Made by a program: the position numbers and the translations under genes
Source of the DNA: Branchiostoma lanceolatum
Lineage: Eukaryota > Chordata > Leptocardii > Amphioxiformes > Branchiostomatidae
Reading direction: 5' to 3'
DNA: 64,000 bases
Assembly: GCF_035083965.1 (NCBI RefSeq)
Contig: NC_089737.1
Span: 13,505,029-13,569,028, forward strand
The notes under the pieces: generated by a model
Database searches by the model: none
Told to the model about the DNA's origin: nothing
What the model saw: the letters and a program-made list of their open reading frames with translations, nothing else
Shown: positions 3,101 through 32,200 of the stretch, piece by piece
Layout of the letters: the number at the start of each line of letters is the position of its first letter
How positions within the stretch are numbered: position 1 is the first letter of the stretch

Positions 3101-5091
3101 AATGACAAACCATATAAAAATAACGGCTCATTAGCATAATCGACTAATGTAAAACTCATACATACTCAGGAATTTTGCAATGTGAATCATATAACACGCC
3201 ATCTATTTATTCGGTATACGGTGATGTAGCTTTACTCCTTCATTTTAATATTGCTATGGAAACTACACTTAATCTAACTTTTTTTTTCGAGCAACAAAAT
3301 ATTGTCTAAGCGACGTCGTTTTTATTGTTAACTAGCGCTGTCTACAGCTAGCGGAATGAACTGTACAAAGGGTATATACATGTAAGTAGCGGTTCTTTAA
3401 TTGTACATTTGCATTTGCCTTCATTAATTGTTGCTATTTGGTAATGTCGAAAAGAAAATGAACTATATTAAGTAAATGAAATGAAATCATAAAAAAAATT
3501 AAATGCCGTGCATGCCGATAATATGATCGCAAGCATTTACATTATGGCCTGTGCCCAGATTCTAGCCTGGAGTCTATCCTTGTTAGCTTTGGCCCTCTCC
3601 TAACGTCTGTAGCCGCCAAAGCTAACAAGGCTGGACTCAAGGCTACCGAGATTCCAGATGTGTTGGTCCGCACGTTAAGGACTCCTTACCTCGTCCCCGC
3701 CGTTGATGTCTATCCCCCGCTGCACGATGTCCTTTACAGTCATGATGTCCCCGGTAACCGCGGCCTCTAGCAGCTCGAACTTCAGGTCATCCTGCAGGGC
3801 AGAGAGTATGCAGAATTCAAAGACCACATTATTCTCAGACGAGTGAATGAAGTTATCTTTGAAATAAAATCTTTACTGACACAACAAGGGACTTTCGAAA
3901 GGCCTTCTACAACTACGAACAAACAAGCGGATAAATTGATAGATCTACGTACAAGTATATGAATAAATCAACATGTGGAGTTTGGCGTATCGCATATACT
4001 ACTTGTTCTAAGGTCTACAAATTTTTTGCTACAACAACATTACGACATTTTTTTCTTTTTTTCAGGATATACAAAAGACTGGAAAAAAAGAATTGCGAAT
4101 ACAGACCCTGGTCTTCCATAGTTTGTCTTCTCCCTTTTCCTCCTCTTCCTTTCTCCTCTTCTCCTCCTCTTCCTTCTGTTTCGCCTCGTAGATTCCGGCA
4201 ACTTCGTCCATTTCCTCCATCTCCTCTTCATGCACTTCTTCTTTCTTCTCCGGCTCTTCGGCGGGTTGTTCCTCAAGAGGAGGGGGTCTAGTGTCTTCCG
4301 TTACAGGCGTTTCCTCAGATACCGGTGGAGAAGGTTCTTCGGCGGGTGCTGAGGGTTCTTCAGCGGGAGCCTCGGTCTCAGCCGGCGCAGGCGCACTGGG
4401 TGCTTCATCCGGGACCTGTGCTTCATCCGGGGCCTGTGCTACATCCGGGGCCTGCGCAGGTCCGTTGGTCTCCATCGGCGGTGGAGCTTCGGGGCGGGGA
4501 GGGCCGAAGGCGGAGACGGGTTCGGGCGAAGGAGACATACCTACAAGAAAACTGGGAATCAGTGCACATTGTCTACAAAGTGAAAAGGGTCGACACCACA
4601 TCATACCATCAATTCAGAGACTGTGTCCCACAGGTCATGAAAAAATCGAAGATAAATGTCATTTTGTGATGACTTGTCCTTCTTACAGTAAAGGAACAGA
4701 GAGAAGTGATGTTACCACTAACTAAGAGAAACTTCACCCAATCTGGTACACAGAACGATATTTTCCCATGTATGACGTATGTATTGTTGTCATGTCCAAA
4801 CTTCTATATTCGCCTACATGGTATATACGTAAATGTCTTAATACTTCAATCCAAAAGCGAGACCAAATCATCAATAGTGACTATGATATCTTGTAGTTCT
4901 ATTTGTTGATTAAAAGCTGTTGCCATAAATTGTACCATGTACGATTGTTGAAAAATAATGTTCATTAACTCAATACCCGGTTCGGGGGCGTGTGGCCTCT
5001 CAGGCCCGGGTGCCGAGGGTCGTTCGGCCGGCCCATTTGCTGCCCAGCCACCGAACTCTTCGAACTCCAACTCGTCCTCTTCGTCCGCCAT
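156..5091 (-). CDS. MARP-family ankyrin repeat protein (ANKRD1/ANKRD2-like), 3' end beyond window
   Basis: Seven minus-strand exons join in frame: 5091-4977 (ATG, ends phase 1), 4540-4107, 3791-3690, 2391-2293, 1902-1804, 827-729 and 257-156, giving 350 residues before the left edge. Residues 1-183 are acidic and proline-rich with PAPDEAQ/PAEEPS-type repeats, ending in a Glu/Lys/Arg-rich helical stretch before LWKTR. Residues 184-350 are consecutive ankyrin repeats, one per exon; the motifs NALHRSACEGH, SALHWATRFG and TPLHVAVRVG follow the order of vertebrate ANKRD1/ANKRD2/ANKRD23 (ALHRACLEGH, AIHWASRGG, ALHVAVRTG). In vertebrates that family links titin-N2A mechanosensing with nuclear transcription control in muscle; a like role here is inference. 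Oddity: exons 2391-2293 and 1902-1804 are near-copies, giving one ankyrin unit more than vertebrate MARPs, or mutually exclusive exons. At least one further exon is expected to the left. Confidence 0.85.
3560..3655. repeat. Short fold-back repeat in ankyrin gene intron
   Basis: CTTGTTAGCTTTGG on the left and CCAAAGCTAACAAG on the right are inverted copies flanking a short loop, with imperfect extension on both sides. It lies in the intron between the second and third coding exons. Confidence 0.6.
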
Positions 5092-14763: not shown

Positions 14764-17700
14764 CTAGTCTAGGCAAATTCCCAGTGATTTCAAGCATCTA
14801 CATCCCGGAAAGCATTCAAATCTACAACGACATGACCTTGGCCTGTTCTTGGGTTTACACTTTCCTGTATAGGCCAATGTCCACTGTATCTTTCCGCAAA
14901 TGGACGGATTGCCCGATTGCGTCATACCGCGATCATATCGCTTAACAATATTGTGGAACGTTTCTGTGCTTTCTCCAGCTTTCGTATCCTGTCCCAAATA
15001 ATCTGAAATGTAACAAACATTATAATATTGTAACATTATTTTTTGCTGATATGTCACTGCACGAAATGGCCTCGTTTCCCGGCGTATACGTACCGGTATT
15101 TTTCTGTATTTTTGTCGGATACTGACGGATACTGACGGATACAGGCGGATTCGTGTAAGATATCCGACAATTTCCGCACCGGTATATGGAATATTTCCGG
15201 AAGAATCCGAAAGTAAGGTATATTCGACGAATACGGAGCCGTACACTGCACGGAAATGCCACCGATCCTGACGGATACGAACAGGAAATTTTCTGTATTT
15301 TTGGCGGATACTGACGGATACAGGCGGATCCAACCTGACGGATCCGACTAAATGCGCACTGGGATATGGAATATTTCCGGAAGAATCCGAAAGTAAGGTA
15401 TTTTCGACGAATACGGAGCCGTACACTGTACGGAAATGCCACAGATCCTGACGGATGCGTACAGGGATTTTTCTGTATTTTTGGCGGATACTGACGGATA
15501 CTGACGAATCCAACCTAACAAATCCGAAAATTTCCGCACCGGGATCGTGAATATTTCCGGAGGAATCCGAAAATGAGGTATTTTCGACGGATACGGAGCC
15601 GTACACTGTACGGAAATGCCAGCGATCCTGACGGATACGTGTAGGAAGTTTTCTGTATTTTTTAAAAGAAAATTGCGGATACTGACGGATACAAGCGGAC
15701 TGTGATCCGGAACCTCAGATCCGGAGGAATACAAAAATAGGAATTTTCGACGGATATGGGGCCGTACATTGCACGAAATTGCCCAAGATCCTGACAGATA
15801 CGTACAGTATGTATTTGCCACGGATACAGACTGATCCAACATACAGACTTTCTACAATCTTTGACATATTGTGACTCTGAATATGTTTGTATTTGCCACG
15901 AATATGTACAAATCAAACACACAAAGTTTGATAGAATGGTTGATTATTCATAAATACGCGTGCATTCTTAATTTAACGAATTATTATTCAATGACAGGAA
16001 GTTTTGGGAAAGCATGAATGTAACATCATTTCATATTTCAACATATATGCATTTCTAAGTTCAAAAACTATCAAATACAATACGGAAGTTCTATGTGGCT
16101 AAATAATCCATTTCGTTTAAGACAGGCCGAGGGACATCCACATACTCAAAGCACCTCTGCATATGCAGGTTAATGTCGGTAAATTGGGGTTGTGTAAGCA
16201 CAATTGTTATAAAATGTATTACAATCAACAACCATCACATCATGGTGGTAATATTTACTGCCGTATAGTGCACTTGGACCAAAAATTTCTACATGTTCTA
16301 CATATTCTACTAAAGTAATGAAAGCCTTATTTGTGGCCAGTTCTTCGTCTAAAAGATATCAGATACAAATAATTTCAAATACAGAGGTTGAAAATAGAAA
16401 CTTCAAAGTAACATTATACTGTCTGAAAAACTCCCATGATGACACGCCACATTTTACACGTAAGTAGTATATGCCGTGGAACTGCATGTGTATAATCGTC
16501 CTCTCCCCATTCTATGACTACATCTGAGTTCACTTCTTCCATGCACTCTTGGTAAGGTACAGGCAAGGCTGATTTCTTCTGTATCTAGCATGTTGGACTC
16601 AGCTTGGAGTTCATCTTGTGATGAACCAGTTCCTATATGATAAAACCAAATGATGAATAAATATCATTTCACATACTTAGTATTTAAGTAAAATGTCACA
16701 TGATTTTGACATAACTGTGATCAAGGAGGTTATATAGACTATATAACCTCCTTGCTGTGATGGGCTTCGTTTCATCACAGCAGCTAACTAAAAACAAGGG
16801 ACAATGGGTATCCATCATGCCTGTCTCAGCTAACATTGAAGTGTACCGATGATGGACTTAAGCCTTACCGAAGGAGCCTGAGGTACTCTGAGCATCTGAC
16901 AGCTGATTGCTTTGTTCCAAGCCAAGCTAAGGTCCTCACAACATGTGCTGCATTTGTGAAGGAAGTATCTGCCGATGCTGTATAGGATATATATATAAAG
17001 GGAATCAATGACAAATATTAAACATATCACATAATCACATTTGTAAAAAATGAATCTGGCATCGTTTAATTGAATACGTAAAACTTACATTCATAACTTG
17101 AATATGATATTGATCAAATATGTACAGCTACAACTTAATGCAATAATCACTGAAACACACTACTACCTCCACATAAGTTCCAGCTCACTATCCACAAACG
17201 GTGGGACCTTTGTGGGACAAATACTTATGACATTCTCTTCCGTTACAGGATATCTTTAATTATCTTTCCCTCAACCGCTTGCTATGTTGTATCTGAAACG
17301 TTAACCAGACACAAATGTCTGTTGACCATTGGCAAGAACGAACAAATTGAAAGCTATAAATTTCATAGATCCTAACGGTGTAGAAGTGCAGGTCGACTGG
17401 ACAATTCTTAATGTCATGCAAATGCGATGATATGTCAAGCCACAATAGGAGGATAACTGACGTTCAAACTAGTTAGAAACATGAATTTTCCAATTTGTAC
17501 TTACCAAAGGGCAGTCTCTCTAAATGATGAATCGACTCCCTACCAACTTTACAAGGGGGAGGGGGGCGACGAATATTGCATGCACGAAGAAGACTACTTC
17601 GCAATGCCGCGCGTTTGAGTTTACACCGAATCCCCTTCGACTCTCAAGTCACTAAAAATCACTGGTCGACCATGGTAGACTCTGACGATGCCATGTTAAG

Positions 17701-20700
17701 CACAGAGAGTGATGAAACGCCGTTCTTGTCTCCGTGCTGTTCACCGACAAAACCGTTTCTCGCGCCTGACGTCATGACACGCAGTGTCTTGTGGGAGATT
17801 GGGCACGAATCCGTATTCCGGAAACGTCAGGATTCGTCAGAATTGTTGGATCTGAGGTGCATCGGATCCAATCGGAAACGTTCCGTATCTGCTATTATGC
17901 ACGATTGCGGATCCGCTGGATTTTTCAGGATCTGAGATCATGCCGTGCAGTGTGTATTTGTTGGTTAGAATCCGAAGCAACTACCGACAAACAAACAATC
18001 CGATTAATATCTCTGCCATATTGACAAATATCTGAAAACGAAGGATCCGCGCAAATATCCTCAGGTATCCGAGGCGCATCACGGATCCAGACGTATACGG
18101 CGTCGGAATTGCCGGATCTGAGCTGTACCTGGTATTTGTCTGAATTTGCTCGGAAACGTTCCGTATCTGTACCCGAAACGTATGAAGGATCCAGACGTAT
18201 ACGGCGCCGGAATTGTCGGATCTGAGGTGCATCGGATTCAATCGGAAACGTTCCGTGTCTGCTATAATGCATAATTCCGGATCTGCTGGATTCGTCAGGA
18301 AATGAGATCATGCCGTGCCGTGTGTATTTATTCGTCAGGATCCGAAACAACTACCGACATACAAACAATCCGAACATTCCAAATATAAAAAAAACGAGGG
18401 ATCCGCACAAATATTTTCGGGTATCCGAGGCGCATCACGGATCCAGAGGAATACGGCGTCGGAATTGGTCGGATCTGCGGGCACCTCAGTATCCGAGCAG
18501 TGAACTGGGATTTTTTCGGATTCGTTCGGAAACGCCATGAGGCCCGATTCCGGATACGTGGGATCCGTCAGGATACGTGGCCATTTCGTGCAGTGTGTCC
18601 AACAAATATTGATCCCCACCGAAGATGGTCAACATCATAAAAAAAAAACACTAAGAATGGGAATGCCGTGTGTACAAGTAGAAGTGGCGCTAGTGAGGTA
18701 GCCATGAGTGAGAAGTGCACCAAAACCAGCGTTTGCTTAGATGTATTATGCATGTATGTATGTTTTACATGACAGACCACGTGGTCTTATGCTACATGCT
18801 TACAGTATTTAGACATTTGCTAATCTAATTCACCAGCCAATCCAAATTCTACCCACTTCGGCATCAATGCCAATCGTTGCAAAATTGAATGCCGATTCGA
18901 TTAAATCGGAAATGATTACTTACATCTAAGCACTTACCTGGAAAAGCATATATAATATATATACAATATATTAAGTCACTTTATCCTATTGGTTTTGGCA
19001 TTCCACATCCGCCAGTTTCTTGCTTTTCTAGGTACGTGCTTAGATGTAAGTAATCATTTCCGATTTAATCGAATCGGCATTCAATTTTGCAACGATTGGC
19101 ATTGATGTCGAAGTGGGTAGAATTTGGATTGGCTGGTGAATTAGATTAGCAAATGTTGCCGCTTAATACTGATGGCATACATCATTCTTTTTCATTGTTC
19201 ATTTTGGCGGAATATGATTTTGTTCTTTAATGCTTATATCAACAATTAACGATTTTGTAATATAAAATGAGGCATGTTTGTAAGGCCACCCGACATTTTC
19301 ATATAATCTAGATGTACCTCTAGCGTCCTCCTCTTGGACCCGGTACAGAGCGGCGTCACGACACACGGGCTGCAGCTGTGATCGCAGGATGACGTCATCT
19401 TCGGGGCTAACCGGAACGGACCGGTTCAGGAAGACGAGTTGGTCAACGTCAATACTTGCAACATCATCTTCCTGTCAACAGAAGACGAAGCAACAAAATA
19501 ATTGTACGTTGCTGTTGCTTGACATACGACACGTCAGTTGATAATCGCAGCTTTAGTGGCTCTTTTTTTTGCCTAGATTCTTTTTCGTTAGAACATGTGA
19601 TCTATCTTTTTCTTGGCTTAAGATAACAAACGCAATCAATAACTTGAAGCTCCTGAATAACTCATAAAAGTAACAAAGCACTTAAAACATTAGATCATAC
19701 TCACCGACAAGGACTTCATTGCGTCTTCCGCTTCGTCGAAGTCAAAGTCGCTTGTCTGGTTGTTCTTTTCGTCCTCCAACAGGTAACAGCTACCCCGGCG
19801 GTAGAGCACGGACAATCCCTGTGTAAATGGCATTTTATCAGAATTAAACGTCAGCTTGAAATATCCGTATGAAATATGAAATTGTATATTGGCATTGTAC
19901 CACAAAAACATGTTTCTACGGTTTGTACACTTTCAGCTTTTTCCATTCAATCTTTTATTATCTTTTAAAATGTCCATTTAATCAGCTAATGATTGCTTAC
20001 AATTGATAACGACATTAACCGCAAAAAAATAGACTATTGTATCATATTCTTATATCTACCTCCTTGGTTTGTATAATCTCCCCGTCCTCAGTGCTGACGT
20101 CATCCCGGTACACCACCATGCCGTTCTCCCGGTCCACCTCCACCTCCTCTGTAAACGTCTGGCCATTCACGGATGCCTTAATGGTGAACTGTTTGTGCAA
20201 CAGTAACAACAAACATTTATTTAGAAATCACTATATATAGCCAACAAGTAGTTTCAATTCGAGGAGATTCTTTTTTCACAACCAGGTAATCTCACTTGCT
20301 GACGTTTCGATGTCTATGAGACACCTTCTTCAGAGCTTCTGACTGGAGTACTGCTTCTCACCGCTATAAGTAGCCAATGTAGGTGGCGCTTTTGGGACAG
20401 TGTTTTCACCGCAAAAGCGCCAACCACATCGGCTACTTATAGCGGTGAGAAGCAGTACTCCAGTCAGAAGCTCTGAAGAAGGTGTCTAACAGACATCGAA
20501 ATGTTAGCAGGTGAGATTACCTGGTTGTGTAATAAGAATCTCCTATATCCTATATTCTACCAACCTGATGAAATTATTTTCGGTAGTTTCAATTCTATTT
20601 TGAATGGCCGATAATTATTTTCATATTATACATTTTGACGACAACATTTAAATGGCGTCATGCGGGGTCTTGCGGAACTGCAGCCGTCTCACCCCGGCCG

Positions 20701-21985
20701 TCAGCTGTAAAGGTCACGCGTATTTATGAGTCGAAACTACCATACAATAAAGTTCGTGTCTCGCTGGCTTTCACGTTAAGGGCTTACATGCGTACGGTTC
20801 AAGATTTAGGGGCGCGACGTTTTTACCGCTATGTGAAAGACACCGGGGGTCGCAGATAAATACTGTGTGTTTGTGTGTGTTTTTTATTTTTGCTATCTGT
20901 TTGGAAAAAAAGTTTCCAGCGACCAAAACAGGAATAGATGACTGTTTAAAGCCTTTGAATCGCGTTTAGAGAAATGAATAGTTGAATTTAATTTGCGGAT
21001 GATATTTTGACGTCACAGATAGCATGGTTAGTTGTTTTCAATTGTTTTGTAAATTTTGCCCTCAACTTCCACACATTCGTTTATCGTACTTCTCTAGGGT
21101 ACCCTACTATAATTTATTCCGCATCGATGGCAATCAGTCAACTATAGAAATCCCCGCAGGCGAAAACTGTGTTTTTCTACCTTACGTCCGCATTTCCCCC
21201 GGAAGTACGTCATCAGTCCACCAGCCGCCACTGCGCAGGTCACAAGCAGCAAGGCTACAGCCAATCCCGCGGCGATCCTGAAACGAGGCTGGAACCTGGT
21301 TTTTCCGGTTTTCTTGTCCTCTGGGTCTATCTGTCAACAACAGTGGAACAATGGCAGCTATGAATTTTTGTGCACGCCCTTTTTGACTATCTTTCATAAA
21401 AACAACCAAGTAAATACTACAGATACTTCTCAACTGCTAGCTACCTATTGTAAATATCAGGTTGAAAATAGATTACATTGTTTCTTATTTAGCTCTTTTG
21501 AAGGTGGATGTAACCAGCTAGCTACAGTCAGACATAACTCTAAATCCCGAAAAACTTTGAAATTGAATTTCTGAAAGCTGTGGTTATTTAAGTGAATCTA
21601 AACTAAGGCAGCTTGTAGTGAGGGGACTTAAATTAGAGTAATAAGTCAGGTTGAGACATCATCTTAATTAGGTGGTGTAACTGTGGAAGGAATAAGTTTG
21701 TCTACAAAGCGACGACTGACATACATGTATGCACAGCGTCGAAAAGTATGCCAACTTTTAACTTCTAGTGTAACGCGTAGATCCCTAGTGGCTTTTAACC
21801 CCCTACCATAACAATTCTGTCTTTTGTGGGCAAATGCGGCGGCCATAGTAAACTAAAAAGGATGGCACCAAGCCTATGATTCTACACCGCCCATGTGACG
21901 ACGAGCGAACGTGCTGCTGGATTGTGACGCAGTACTGAAAATAAACAAAATGTACACTTACTTTGACTTCAGGTTTCTGATCCAT
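14764..21985 (-). CDS. BRICHOS-domain type II membrane protein A with 8-Cys C-terminal peptide (269 aa)
   Basis: Six exons: 21985-21962 (MDQKPEVK), 21330-21181, 20188-20060, 19818-19705, 19471-19318 and 15002-14764 (stop). Introns are phase 0 except the last (phase 1). There is no signal peptide; a hydrophobic segment at residues 27-51 (IAAGLAVALLLVTCAVAAGGLMTYF) after a Lys/Arg-rich stretch predicts a type II protein. Residues ~59-190 fit a BRICHOS domain: FTIKASVNGQTFTEEVEVD, VVYRDD, then the paired cysteines C112 (GSCYLLED) and C176 (QPVCRDAAL). NQT and NRS are possible N-glycosylation sites. A dibasic IVKRY at residues ~209-213 could be a cleavage site. The last 44 residues contain eight cysteines (226, 239, 248, 250, 254, 258, 260, 267) and many Lys/Arg. 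BRICHOS domains act as intramolecular chaperones for such C-terminal peptides. It is a tandem paralogue of the gene at 24143-27318. Its last intron (4.3 kb) carries a ~3.5 kb mobile element. Confidence 0.82.
15054..15800. repeat. Left subterminal array, ~180-bp units, 4-5 copies
   Basis: Unit starts are spaced 181, 180, 177 and 162 bp. Shared landmarks are GATCCTGACGGATACG, TTTTCTGTATTTTTGGCGG, AATATTTCCGGA and TTCGACG.ATACGGAGCCGT. Open frames across it are a by-product of the periodicity. Confidence 0.85.
15055..18600. mobile_element. ~3.5-kb element with inverted termini and subterminal satellite arrays
   Basis: The left end (from ~15055) and the inverted right end (to ~18596) share CACTGCACGAAATGGCC plus several further bases. 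Inside each end are arrays of diverged units that start with a terminus-like CACTGCACGGAAATGCC and are full of CGGATACTGACGGAT or GGATCCG words. The left array has units at ~15054, 15243, 15424, 15601 and 15763. The right array spans ~17775-18598 with ~370-bp units in the opposite sense. The middle (~15900-17770) is AT-rich with no intact transposase frame. It sits wholly inside the last intron of BRICHOS gene A, between exons 19318 and 15002. A solitary terminus-like CACTGCACGAAATGGCC also occurs at ~324. The class is unknown. Confidence 0.6.
18814..19155. mobile_element. Fold-back element (inverted repeat arms ~135 bp)
   Basis: The left arm CATTTGCTAATCTAATTCAC... is repeated in inverse as ...GTGAATTAGATTAGCAAATG at the right, with near-perfect pairing through the whole arm and a ~70-bp centre. 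No clean target duplication was seen. Confidence 0.85.
20261..20582. mobile_element. Fold-back element with 13-bp target duplication, intron of BRICHOS A
   Basis: Inverted arms run from ~20261 to ~20544 (AGGAGATTCTT at left, AAGAATCTCCT at right; inner arms TCAGAGCTTCTGACTGGAGT and its inverse). A one-sided tail ACCAACCTGATGAAATTATT follows. The element is flanked by exact GTAGTTTCAATTC at 20248-20260 and 20583-20595. The same tail occurs at ~33664 after another fold-back. Confidence 0.85.
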
Positions 21986-24142: not shown

Positions 24143-27100
24143 TCAATCGCAAGAAGTCATGAATTTATAGCATCTGCACGACCTACTGCACTGAAATTGG
24201 CAGGAACACCGGCGGCGCCAACCCCAGCGGTACCTATACCAGTACCGGTAACATCGTCCAACATACAAAAGCCTAGGTAAAATCATGCATGTTGTAGGTT
24301 CATCTTCCACACCGTCATCCACATCGTCCAAGCCAACGGGAGCCTGAGCGTCCGGTAAGGCCCAGCGCCGCTTGACACGACTTTGCGATGTTTCCATCAT
24401 ATCTCCATCGTCATTTTCCTGTCCCAAATAATCTGAAATCCAGTCAAGTTTACAGAGTTATCTTATCTAAACATATTGCAATCATCTATCAACCACATAA
24501 TAATAGATACTGCAAATAAGACTAACGTCAGTAGTGAAGGATGACACGTTATTAGTTACATGTAAGACAAAAACTTTAACGAACGATAGCAAATGGGACT
24601 CTGAGTAGATCGGGAGCTTTGAAAAGTGATTACGAATTCAACCAATTGCTCGCTATTAGTTCTTGTTGTATACTAATGAGACCTGCACTATAATTTAGAA
24701 TTTTACTATGTTCAGACCGAGGTAAGATTGGTGTTAATAGTTTTACCTCTAGCGTCCTCCTCTTGGACCCGGTACAGAGGCGCGTCATGACACACAGGCG
24801 GCAGCTGTGGTCGCAGGATGACGTCATCTTCAGGACTAACCAGAACTGACCGGTTCAGGAAGACGACTCGGTCAACGTCAAAGCTCGGCACGTCACTGTC
24901 ATCCTTTCGAAAATGATTAAATCAATAATATCATTAGTTTCTTTTTCTCGACTAAGGCTTTCAGAAAGGCGAATATGTTCATTTTCATATATGAGGAGGT
25001 GCCTCGAACACGTTAAACAGCCTCATTACCCTACACATTGGGTACCTGCCTGTGGCACTGGCTGCAAATACACCTGACATTATTATTATATCATTATATT
25101 AGGTCACGGCAAGTAAATTTTATGGATGACATCCTCTGCAGACTCTGAAGTCGTGATTGAATATGAACATCAATCATGATCATGAGGAATTATCGTTCTT
25201 TGCTAGCATGCTATTGACAGGTCATGAAAGCAAAAAGACACACGCAAACGTTTATACTTAGTCTATTATTGTATATAGTGCCAGTAACCTATTGTTACAG
25301 CAAAGTCAGACACAGTTTACTGACGCATGTATGTTTTTCCTATGTTTTTATCATGTATTTGCAATTAGCCCACGGGCATGAACTTGCAATAAACTTCTTC
25401 TATTATCATTTGAACATTATGGTACTTACAGATAAAGACTCCATCGCAGCCTCCGCCTCATCAATGTCAAATTCGCTCGTCTGGTTGTTCTTTTCGTCCT
25501 CCATCAGATAGCAGTTGCCTCTCTGGTAGAGCACGGACAATCCCTGTCACAAAGTCAACCAGATGACATTCCTATTACGATGATTCAATAGCCTAGTACA
25601 TAACAAAGTTTTTTGGTCTACAGCCCGTAGTTTGCAATGTAGTCATTTTTCAATTACATTTTTTCTTTAATTTCTTACATTCTGTTTCTTTTACCCATGG
25701 TGGCCCAACTCAGCGTGAGACAGTGCAGTGGGACCCTTGTCATTTTTTGTTTTGCCTTTTTTAAAAAGTGATCTATTGATTCGATCAACTCCATTCAAGT
25801 AACAGAAAAATACAGACTTTTATCTTAGATCTGAAGCCCCACGCTTTAACTGATGGGTAATGTTGCTACCCACCTCTTTGGTTTGTATGATCTCCCCGTC
25901 CTCAGTGCTGACGTCATCACGGTACACCACCATGCCGTTCTCCCGGTCCACTTCCACCTCCTCTGTGAACGTCTGGCCATTCATGGAGGTCTTTATGGTG
26001 AACTGTGCGCACAATAATAATAATAGAAAATTTAAAAAAAAAATCCATAATATTATGTACGTCGATGAAGGTTAGACATCCAAGTAATAAGGAACAAGCA
26101 AGGTAACTATTACTCAAGCAACTGGTTAGATTTTGGCATTCAAAAGTTCCTTGTTATTGTTACCTTGCTTATTCCTAATGTAGCCACAAAGTATGCATAT
26201 TGTTTTGATTTCACAATTCTATCCAAACAAAAGGTCCGATGACAAAGTAAACTTTCATTTACTGGCTGTAAACTTACAAAAACAAAGAGCAACTGTATCG
26301 ACCGTCCACATTTAAACCGCGTTCCTGCTTATGTTGTGCACAACATGTCAGAATTAACAGCGTCAAAAATAAACAAATATATGATAAACAAACAAACAAG
26401 AAGTCACACCCGTTTATTTCCGCATTTCCCCCGAAAGTACATCATCAGTCCACCGGCCGCCACTGCGCAGGTCACAAGCAGCAACCCAACAGCCAATCCC
26501 ACGGCGAGCCTGAAACGAGGCTGGGACCAGGTTTTTCCGGTTTTCTTGGCCTCGGGTTCTATCTGTCAACGGCAGTGTAACAGTTGCCACTATTGATATT
26601 TGTACACGCCCCTTTTTGACTATCTTTGAGAAAAACAACCAGGTAAAGACTGGGGTGATTCACAACTGCTAGCTAGCTGCTCGCATACATCAGGTTGAAA
26701 ACAGTGCTTCTTATTTCGCTGTTTTCTATGTGTGAGGTATCCAGTCAGACATACCTCTTAGACATGTCATCAATTCAGTGATGATAAACAAAATTTTCAA
26801 TTGAATTTTGTAGAAAAAAAGTTTTTCTGTCAAATAATCTCACAGCTTGAAAGCTCTCTGAAATAAGGGAGGAGCCTTTAACGAGAATGAGCCCGATGAA
26901 TAAGTCTACGACATGCTTTTCCTTATATGCTACATGCTAGAATGTGGTAGAAAGAAAGGGGTCTGCGATGAACCTATGCACAGTACTAGTGTGGACAAGT
27001 ATGCCAGATTTTGGATTTCTAGTGATCCGCAAAGATCCCTAGCCTAGTTTCTTCGTGACCTTCTTTGCCTTCCTTCTCTCCGTTTCGTGGAGCCTATTAA

Positions 27101-27318
27101 AGCGCTGGCTTTAAGACATTTTACTAGCCCGGGTGCTCAAGTAGGGAAGCGAATATGGGAGCCCGGCTGGTAAACTAAATAGAATCATTATATTCACGAT
27201 ATATGATTCTACACCGTCAACGTTCCGGGGAACGTGTGATGAGCATCAGATTATGTTTTGACTCAATGGTGAGAACAGAAAAATGTGCACTTACTTTGAC
27301 TTCAGGTTTCTGATCCAT
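24143..27318 (-). CDS. BRICHOS-domain type II membrane protein B with Arg/Tyr/Trp-rich 8-Cys C-terminal peptide (288 aa)
   Basis: Six exons matching paralogue A in size and phase: 27318-27295, 26562-26410, 26002-25874, 25543-25430, 24903-24747 and 24432-24143 (stop). Exon 2 encodes the membrane segment (LAVGLAVGLLLVTCAVAAGG) and ends at a weak donor (CGG|GTGTGA). The BRICHOS region spans residues ~60-192 with cysteines 113 and 178; the sequence around VEVDRENGMVVYRDDVSTED is identical to A. A furin-type site RVKRR (residues 211-215) is followed by an acidic spacer (LDDVDDGVEDE) and a cationic tail with eight cysteines at 241, 253, 268, 270, 274, 278, 280 and 287. Between cysteines 2 and 3 lie 14 residues, YRYWYRYRWGWRRR, alternating aromatic and arginine around a Gly turn. 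That is the composition of beta-hairpin antimicrobial peptides released from polychaete BRICHOS precursors such as arenicin. The antimicrobial role is inference from family precedent. Confidence is high for the gene, lower for function. Confidence 0.82.
26040..26175. mobile_element. Degenerate fold-back element (GATGAAGGTTAGACATCC family)
   Basis: GTCGATGAAGGTTAGACATCCAAG begins the copy, and AAGGAACAAGCAAGGTAAC pairs with the inverted GTTACCTTGCTTATTCC at the end. It is related to the elements at 41912, 59070 and 60587. Confidence 0.6.
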
Positions 27319-29299: not shown

Positions 29300-32200
29300 A
29301 TGGAAGAAAGCGGGAGCAAACCCGAAGAGCTTGCAAGGAAACAATCTGAACCGGCGACTGGCGTCCGTCTGAAAAGGCAACTGACCCTAACCAACGGGGT
29401 AGCGACCACAGTGAGCATTATCATCGGGTCGGGGATCTTCTTATCACCGAAGGGAGTCTTGCGGGGGACCGGTTCCGTGGGCTTGTCTCTCATCGTGTGG
29501 AGTTTGAGCGGGGTGCTGTCCCTACTCGGAGCGCTTTGCTATGTGGAGCTTGGCACGACCATCCCCAAGTCGGGCGGAACCTACACGTATCTATACGAGA
29601 TTTTTGGACCGTGGGTGGGCTTTATGAGAGTGTGGCAGAGGTTTCTCCTCTCGGCCCCTGCAGGCCGCGCCGTTATGTCCATCACCATTGCAAACTACGC
29701 GCTGTATCCCTTCTTCGCACCTTGCCCTGTACCTTACCTGGCCACACGGCTGATTGCGGCAGCTTCTATGGGTATGTGCGTCCTTTTTACTGCATGAAAA
29801 ATTGAGATGTTGTTTTGGGTGTGTCTGTGTTTCCTGACTTTTGTACTTAGCTTAACTTAAGAACTTCTTCGTGTATTGTGATGATATTTGGTATGTGGGT
29901 AGGTGTTGGGAAGACGAAGGTCAAGGTCGATTTTGTGCACCCTGGTGTGTGACCTTGGTACTGCAGCAGAACTTCCGTTTTTTCGTATCTTTTGACCTGG
30001 ACGTGCTATGGTCTTGATTTTTTGGTGGCAGGTAGCTTGTGATGTAAGGAAGAAGTGGTGTAGGTTTCCTCTGGAACTGCACGGGCGCTTTTTCCACTGC
30101 AAAGTATAGAGACGAGCTACATGTAATACACGGCGGTTCAGTGCTCAATCATACTGTTTTTCTGAGCTACTTCGCGGTGTAATTTATTCAAAACGAGACA
30201 AAAACAGCATTAACAGTATCAAACTGTATATTTCAGCTTTGATAGGCTTTCTCAACTACTACAGTGTCCGCTTGGCGGCGCAAATGAACAACGCCCTGAC
30301 GCTCCTGAAGGTTGGAGCACTCGGTATCATCATAATCTTCGGTGGGATTCAGCTCGCTAGAGGTTAGTGGTATTGAAAGAATGAATGAATAAATGAATGA
30401 ATGTATGTTATGTATTACATATCAGTGCCCATAGACTATATACGGTGACGTTTAACCTGCACCAATGAATGTATTTGTCACAATAAGGTCGTTCCCTTTC
30501 CTAGTACGCATGCGCGAGGTCAAAGGTGAAAGACCCTGATTTGTAAACAGCTCTAATCTCGACCATTGTATCGATATGCATAACAATGTCTAGGCATATT
30601 ATGTTTAGGTCTCAGGGTCCTTCACCTTTGACATATTACCCACAATGCATGTCGCTGCGCATGCGTACTCGGAACCGTGAAACACAAACGATATTTTCCA
30701 GGGCAAACAGAAAACTTGGAGCCAACCAAGGCCTTTGAGGGAACCACCTCTTCTGTTGGGGATGCCGTGGTGTCGTTTTACTCAGCACTGTGGGCGTTTA
30801 ATGGATGGTGAGTTTAAAGCTGTACTATGTAGGAATTTAGGCCCAAGACTTAAAACATTCTTGTGAACAAATCTTAATGTGTAGGACATGTGCTATCACT
30901 TTTCAGTATATTTTCATCATTATGTTGTCTATTTTTGGTGTTTGTGTACTGTGAAGGAAATACATCAAAGGGATCTTGAGTTATAGCTTCGAACACAACC
31001 CTAACGATAACAGTACCCCCACGAAGGAGGTTTACTGCCTTCACGGATGTAATAATGTCTTGTTGATGGGTTTTGTTTTGTTTTGTCACTACAGGCAAGC
31101 CCTCAATGCTTTGATCGAAGAGGTGATCAATCCAACAAGGTATGAGAAATGACACTTTAAGCTTTAGATAATCTTAACTCCGTGAAATACATCTACACTT
31201 TCTCTTCTTAAATTACATCAAGACTTTCTTTGGACAAAAGAAAAATAGAGATATCAAGCCAAAAAAATGTTGAGTGGCGTTTCTATATCGTTATGGAACA
31301 TCTATAGCAACAGTTATACAACAAACTAACGGTACGCATATATGATAGATTAAGTAAGGTAATGCACTGTACATTGACTATACACAAGCTTTGATATTCA
31401 ATTCGCAGTACATTTCCCCCTACACACACACAGAAGGAAAGCACTGTTGTAACTTTTTCTAATAGCATGAAAGTCTCTCAACTGGGACGGGGAGTGGTAT
31501 CGACTTCCGACGAACTTTGACCCTGTGCTGACGTCACACATGTGTAATCACGTGTCTTCAGGACCTGGGTCAGATAGTTAATGAAGACCGGGTGATTTGT
31601 TCGGACATTCCGGTGACTCAATTTTCTTGAGTTCGATAACAGTTATATTTTCCATAACTTCTTGTTGCCCTATGACGTCCCCAGAAACCTGGTCTTGACC
31701 ATAGTGATATCGATGCCGATCGTCACAACCATCTACCTGCTCACGAACATCGCGTACTTCACCGCCATGACTCCCGCAGAACTGCTCGCATCTGATGCCG
31801 TCGCAGTAGTAAGTAATAGATATAGAATACAACACGGTGTGTTCCGTATCGCCCGAGGTACCGCGGAAGACCGGGTAATGCGGAATACACCGTGTTGTAT
31901 AATATTTTATTCATGTCATACCCACCCGAAAAAACATTTTATTGCAAAATGCTCCAGAAGTTTAAAAAATTTGGTGTCCTCCCACAAAGAATTTTAACAG
32001 CGGTAATTCCAACGTCCGAATCCGCTATTCGACTTTTCGACGGCGGCAATTCTGACTGGTTCCCTTTGCACTGCATAGGTGTCGCTGCTGACAGATGAGG
32101 TCCCAATAATGGATTATTTACATATATACAGATATAGTCGATGCGATGTTTACAATGTGATCCCTGACGTGAAGGAATGTATTATATACATAAATGTTGC

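Follow-up and report, generated by a model that had tools for sequence, protein, structure and literature searches.

Antimicrobial peptides of the BRICHOS type are described, in the parts of the literature covered here, from polychaete and spoon worms, and the question raised by one locus of the lancelet Branchiostoma lanceolatum is whether a chordate lineage encodes precursors of a comparable kind. The window, meaning the whole stretch of 64,000 nucleotides that was analysed (contig NC_089737.1, positions 13,505,029 to 13,569,028), is marked as eukaryotic by its spliced genes and carries a gene that a preliminary description had taken for a BRICHOS precursor with an arenicin-like hairpin in its C-terminal peptide. 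A secreted host-defence peptide, which would have to be released, disulfide-bonded and active, is the best single reading of this gene, with a probability of about 45%. It is based on the charge, the aromatic/Arg hairpin, the cysteine scaffold, a gene structure in common with alvinellacin and the fact that the peptide has diverged rapidly next to a proregion that is conserved.

The gene in question, gene B, spans 27318-24143 on the minus strand and comprises six exons with GT/AG borders, which join in a splice reconstruction from the DNA to an uninterrupted frame of 288 residues, the introns being of phases 0, 0, 0, 0 and 1 in order. Exon 1 (27295..27318, -) contains the start codon and encodes MDQKPEVK, a peptide that is the same in the neighbouring gene A, and exon 2 (26410..26562, -) encodes a basic juxtamembrane stretch and a hydrophobic segment, the best 19-residue window of which starts at residue 27 with a mean Kyte-Doolittle value of 2.39. 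The linker and the start of the BRICHOS-like region are encoded by exon 3 (25874..26002, -), which shows 95% identity with gene A, the first conserved cysteine, C113, lies within an NCYL motif in exon 4 (25430..25543, -), and the second, C178, lies within a CHDAPLY motif in exon 5 (24747..24903, -), which is followed by the phase 1 intron.

Exon 6, the last, encodes residues 193-288. Reading of its frame confirmed RVKRR, an acidic spacer and YRYWYRYRWGWRRR between two cysteines in an eight-cysteine cationic tail, all as first described; the exon itself (24143..24432, -) also stands, with the refinement that these coordinates include the stop codon and that the last intron interrupts codon 193. 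The putative convertase-type site RVKRR is located at 24365..24379 (-), and the spacer at 24290..24367 (-) has 26 residues and a net charge of -7 when counted from after RVKR, so that it opens with the codon for the last R of RVKRR. The tail (24146..24289, -) is 48 residues long with a net charge of +10 and a cysteine spacing of 11,14,1,3,3,1,6, and the 14 residues of YRYWYRYRWGWRRR (24209..24250, -), predicted to form a beta-hairpin, are flanked by Cys253 and Cys268, the second and third cysteines of the tail.

Gene A is a second intact gene at 21985-14764 (-), which starts 5.3 kb past the start of gene B in tandem on the same strand and has the same exon plan and phases, with a frame of 269 residues. 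In the splice reconstruction its six exons lie at 21962..21985, 21181..21330, 20060..20188, 19705..19818, 19318..19471 and 14764..15002, all on the minus strand, and the last one carries a VKR site at 14938-14946 and an eight-cysteine tail at 14767-14898 of 44 residues and net charge +8. The duplication also covers DNA upstream of the start codon and the exon flanks. When a profile of A and B was run against 2126 six-frame pieces of the window, only the exons of the two genes scored above threshold, and a third paralogue at 41.4-41.5 kb, suggested by weak matches to exon 2, was dropped for want of a fitting exon context in the surrounding sequence. A search for relatives in prokaryote and viral collections, which hold no animal genomes, gave 23 and 3 pattern matches respectively, none of them confirmed, and none of 4227 Rfam families reached the cut-off.

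Whether the proregion is a BRICHOS domain was judged from several lines of evidence that do not all agree. Pfam BRICHOS (PF04089) gave no match in A or B, either with the full proteins or with the exon 3-to-6 pieces, at E limits of 1 and 10, although the search filters drop most matches above 0.1; all five human BRICHOS proteins used as positive controls did match, their sequences, like the other human sequences used for comparison, having been typed in and not fetched from a database. NCBIfam gave no match with the two pieces searched, and the five human controls all scored at or below zero bits against the A+B profile. An unanchored profile of the BRICHOS domains of the five controls gave 1.5 bits for B and 1.1 bits for A, values reached by 114 and 110 of 2000 shuffles each, where 379 (B) and 415 (A) shuffles were unscored and counted as lower. 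None of the five profile-profile comparisons had a probability above about 1%, and column shuffling attained the score in 4 of 200 trials for the five families together and in 31 of 200 for chondromodulin/tenomodulin. The near-invariant BRICHOS Asp, 16 residues before the first cysteine, is out of register in both genes, which have Ile there and the nearest Asp three residues further; according to the portion of PMC9627735 consulted, 97% of single-BRICHOS domains have Asp at this position and the others have Asn, Glu or Ser.

On the other side, the spacing of the two conserved cysteines, 65 residues in B and 64 in A, falls within the 58-68 of the five human controls, and the surroundings are alike in the two paralogues, with NCYL or SCYL at the first cysteine and CHDAPLY or CRDAALY at the second. 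A cysteine-anchored signature scored 28.0 for B and 25.0 for A, reached by none of 2000 shuffles in either case, in windows picked after the motifs had been seen. The order of elements, with a hydrophobic segment, a linker, the domain, a convertase site and a cysteine-containing C-terminal piece, is that given for the BRICHOS superfamily in PMC2751770 and PMC9714404, as far as these were covered, and the six exons with phases 0,0,0,0,1 correspond to the gene structure of alvinellacin published in the legend of Figure S6 of PMC4002450, the only gene among the BRICHOS families with which this likeness was compared. The cysteine-anchored signature and the gene structure thus support a divergent BRICHOS-like proprotein. 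Since the Pfam match and the Asp register are both lacking, the proteins are termed BRICHOS-like and are not filed as members, and the 'BRICHOS' label first proposed is weaker than it then seemed. The precursor architecture of A and B is very probable. The linker motif NG..E.D also lines up with human chondromodulin (CNMD), and a chondromodulin/tenomodulin ancestry of the linker is possible, with statistics that are not significant.

The two genes have diverged very unequally along their length. Of the 189 positions aligned over residues 1-191 of B, 160 have the same residue in A, while the tails agree at 17 of 42, made up of all eight cysteines and 9 of the 34 other positions; Fisher P is 1.6e-8 for the regional contrast and 2e-4 for that between cysteines and other tail columns, bearing in mind that the alignment itself favours matched cysteines. 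The final five cysteine gaps are equal (1,3,3,1,6), and the opening gaps are 12,8 in A and 11,14 in B. In 5000 full shuffles the tail-to-tail score was matched once, and in 5000 shuffles with fixed cysteines it was matched 103 times, so the likeness beyond the cysteines is modest. By the Nei-Gojobori method, dN/dS between A and B is 0.13 in the linker and BRICHOS-like region, 0.61 in the N-terminal and membrane part and 0.79 in residues 192-215. Synonymous sites are saturated in the tail, so a dN/dS for the tail is omitted and positive selection is not claimed; over residues 1-191 dS is about 0.38. From the same difference in saturation, the tails may predate the rest, the front having been gene-converted, or one last exon may have been swapped. 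A conserved cysteine scaffold in a fast-changing, separately cleavable piece would be hard to explain without translation of exon 6, and the tail is very probably, as judged from the sequence, a translated, fast-changing and disulfide-scaffolded product.

The convertase-type site reported just ahead of the last domain is supported, since VKR precedes the tail at the same position in the two genes and gene B has the fuller RXKR form; cutting at RVKRR in gene B is a plausible step. The ectodomain up to the site is acidic in both proteins, with net charges of -21 in B (tail +10) and -17 in A (tail +8). One cut would free from gene A a product of 57 residues and +8, whereas the once-cut product of gene B, after RVKR, would have 74 residues and only +3. 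A single RVKR cut keeps the -7 spacer attached, so a strongly cationic peptide from gene B would need a second cut. The claim of a cationic eight-cysteine tail is borne out, and the hairpin segment is absent from the paralogue.

An alternative is that the protein stays uncleaved at the membrane and presents the eight-cysteine tail as a tethered module that binds or adheres to glycosaminoglycans or microbes. The hydrophobic, membrane-type segment present in both genes would suit such a module, as would the acidic spacer that holds the once-cut product of B to +3 and the cleavage motif of gene A, which consists of VKR only with Ile at P4. Ile at this position makes a poorer site given the preference of furin. 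The tethered module is nevertheless quite improbable in view of the placement of VKR in both genes and the RXKR site in B, and BRICHOS proteins are as a rule cut ahead of their C-terminal piece (PMC9714404, in part). Release of the C-terminal peptide is the probable outcome, and the genes are likely to encode BRICHOS-like precursors that can be cleaved and have a defence-like tail.

Only gene B has the hairpin segment; gene A has KPKNRPRS in place of the aromatic/Arg segment, and two copies cannot tell which state is older. In the AlphaFold model of the exon 6 product, strands at 57-67 and 70-80 are the only secondary structure (mean pLDDT 44), and the tail alone was modelled with four strands, including 14-20 and 23-29, at a mean pLDDT of 72.5 in the best model and of 43-57 in the other four. 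The structure prediction proposed as a check thus gave a hairpin in both jobs, at low to middling confidence, and the gene B hairpin is somewhat favoured on these models. The strand limits of both models, taken as limits and not as coordinates, put the turn at Arg261-Trp262, so that Cys253 would face Cys270 (24200..24253, -) and not Cys268. Such a bond would close an 18-residue ring, which is the ring size of arenicin. The Gly turn first described depends on this pairing: Gly263 would lie beside the predicted turn only if Cys253 pairs with Cys270, and it is off centre in the Cys253-Cys268 ring, with nine residues before it and four after. Foldseek found no match of the tail model in the PDB, a PDB sequence search with the tail found nothing, and that with the whole protein found only two S-layer chains (E 1.8 and 2.1), which were taken as chance.

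The segment could instead have grown neutrally, through local expansion of a hexamer similar to TACYGG where the loop tolerates it, and be functionless in itself, with the cysteine scaffold alone being of importance. The 42-nt loop indeed shows 58% identity at period 6, which none of 20000 base shuffles reach, and the segment is absent from gene A. A composition scan of 62605 stop-free 14-mers in six frames, with a threshold set after the loop had been seen, was passed at two separate places, YRYWYRYRWGWRRR and +4293. The second of these, VFRYRRFLRYRWRRFFG, is an aromatic/Arg-rich stretch at 4293-4343 (+) antisense to an acidic Glu/Pro-rich frame at 4062-4613 (-); it serves as a chance control and shows that a comparable segment can arise by chance. 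Against this, synonymous recoding of the loop peptide gave a mean period-6 identity of 0.62, and 16984 of 20000 recodings equalled or exceeded the observed value; the loop DNA thus shows no repeat beyond what the peptide demands, and repeat expansion was rejected as the sole source of the loop. The residue order is also mildly unusual, as among 200000 shuffles of the segment only 5733 alternate aromatic residues and Arg as well. A functionless expansion is an improbable account of the segment.

The closest known parallels to a host-defence precursor are the polychaete BRICHOS antimicrobial peptides, namely arenicin, alvinellacin, capitellacin, abarenicin, nicomicin, HfBRI and AmBRI-44a, which share with A and B a hydrophobic N-terminal segment, an acidic proregion, a dibasic site and a cationic C-terminal peptide. 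In the excerpts of PMC10745061, the polychaete precursors have a dibasic site, a cationic C-terminal peptide and in some cases a transmembrane character. The pattern of a fast-changing peptide behind a better conserved proregion is also common to both, as described for alvinellacin (PMC4002450, in part), the gene of which has six exons with phases 0,0,0,0,1. AmBRI-44a is presented in the relevant part of PMC11767717 as a defensin-like peptide with four disulfides and is likened to the tails by description, not by sequence. There are differences as well. The polychaete peptides are hairpins of 20-22 residues, in contrast to eight-cysteine tails of 48 residues in B and 44 in A, the proregions of A and B have no Pfam BRICHOS match, a signal peptide is reported for alvinellacin, capitellacin and nicomicin where A and B appear to have a membrane anchor, and the cationic peptide stands directly behind the dibasic site in A, whereas in B the acidic spacer intervenes between site and tail. 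As a name for the whole peptide 'arenicin-like' has to be given up, as arenicins have 21 residues and one or two disulfides (PMC13001179, in part) compared with 48 residues and eight cysteines here; an arenicin-type antimicrobial peptide is possible from the sequence.

Other BRICHOS proteins resemble A and B in part. OAF (out at first) belongs to the BRICHOS family and has a predicted mature piece of 70 residues with four disulfides, a likeness of description and not of sequence, and it differs in the signal peptide at its start and in its high conservation across animals (PMC9714404, in the part covered). ITM2B (Bri2) is a transmembrane BRICHOS protein from which furin frees a 23-residue peptide (same source and part). 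Its CHDxxxYxxQ motif after the second cysteine is common to gene B, and the freed peptide does not align with the tails, its score being matched by 973 of 1000 shuffles in the case of B and by 777 of 1000 in that of A. Of the four human C-termini tried, that of the BRICHOS protein gastrokine-1 (GKN1) gave the least poor tail alignment, although 90 of 1000 shuffles in the case of B and 134 of 1000 in that of A still reached its score.

The strongest rival comes from chondromodulin-I and tenomodulin, the precursors of which have a convertase site. It holds that the freed tail is an extracellular signalling or matrix factor comparable to their aromatic loop, with no antimicrobial role, and it draws on a common plan of membrane anchor, chaperone-like domain, convertase site and eight-cysteine C-terminal domain. 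Both are membrane precursors with an aromatic-rich disulfide loop in that domain, and the activity of chondromodulin-I is reported to be carried by a Tyr/Trp-rich disulfide ring (PMC3492907, in part). The resemblance does not extend to the tail sequence. In the typed-in sequences the order and spacing of cysteines are unlike 11,14,1,3,3,1,6, with the long loop between cysteines 2 and 3 here and between cysteines 5 and 6 in CNMD, and Arg and Lys are both missing from the CNMD loop, as opposed to six Arg in the loop of B. The B tail scored 33 against the human CNMD tail, a value reached by 363 of 1000 cysteine-fixed shuffles, and 955 of 1000 reached the score against tenomodulin (TNMD); for the A tail the corresponding counts were 817 of 1000 (CNMD) and 747 of 1000 (TNMD). 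A chondromodulin/tenomodulin ancestry of the tail was rejected on the cysteine order and these shuffle tests, and a signalling or matrix role of the tail is regarded as unlikely.

For the host-defence reading, a mechanism can be proposed in which both genes encode type II, signal-anchored proproteins. In the secretory pathway the divergent BRICHOS-like domain, if so folded, would hold an aggregation-prone, disulfide-rich C-terminal peptide folded and quiet until a furin/PC-type protease cuts at (R)VKR and frees it. The product of gene A would be complete after this one cut. In the product of gene B, the acidic spacer would partly neutralise the +10 eight-cysteine domain with its Arg/aromatic beta-hairpin, and a second cut that removes the spacer would arm the domain to bind negatively charged membranes as a secreted host-defence peptide. 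A neutralising role of this kind is ascribed, in the part of PMC10608444 concerned, to the anionic propeptides of 15-30 residues in the sea urchin centrocins and strongylocins.

In the excerpted text of the reviews consulted, the cephalochordate antimicrobial peptides named are BjAMP1 (PMC11767717, PMC12466427), to which PMC10608444 adds big defensins and the ribosomal protein RPS23; none of the three names a BRICHOS-type peptide there. Among the open-licence PMC papers examined, and in the portions covered, BRICHOS and amphioxus are joined only in a two-sequence 'divergent group' of an echinoderm and an amphioxus protein (PMC2751770), and the two terms stand in unrelated places in PMC7350206 and PMC8887668. 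A more far-reaching possibility, though a doubtful one, is that tandem genes for BRICHOS-type host-defence precursors with eight cysteines in the tail form a family peculiar to a deuterostome lineage, and that one copy gained an Arg/aromatic hairpin of arenicin size. If true, and given the gene structure in common with alvinellacin, the pairing of a BRICHOS chaperone with an antimicrobial peptide would either predate the annelid/chordate split or have arisen twice. A BRICHOS-like precursor with a cationic eight-cysteine tail outside the annelids would bear on the antiquity of the chaperone-peptide pairing and on the shifts of BRICHOS clients among signalling, structural and defence peptides, and A and B, with one cysteine scaffold without and with the hairpin, offer a natural comparison of what the hairpin contributes.

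Several features of the neighbourhood were recorded besides. The last intron of gene A (15003-19317, -) is about 4.3 kb long and contains several repeat families rich in ATCCG-type words, compared with about 0.3 kb for that of gene B. Exon 6 of gene A runs on upstream without a stop, giving an open stretch of 237 codons at 14764-15714 (-) that consists mostly of 180-nt (60-codon) repeats; stops are few in the other two frames of the same strand as well, with 1 and 2 over 15055-15714, and this stretch may therefore be a chance product of the repeat composition, or else an alternative long last exon. Two inverted-repeat pairs that resemble small foldback elements lie in the introns of gene A, at 18813-18948 / 19021-19156 (136 nt, 98%) and at 20262-20394 / 20412-20544 (133 nt, 92%). 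Adjoining gene B, an open stretch at 29300-29797 (+) encodes an amino acid permease domain (Pfam AA_permease_2, E 1.2e-16).
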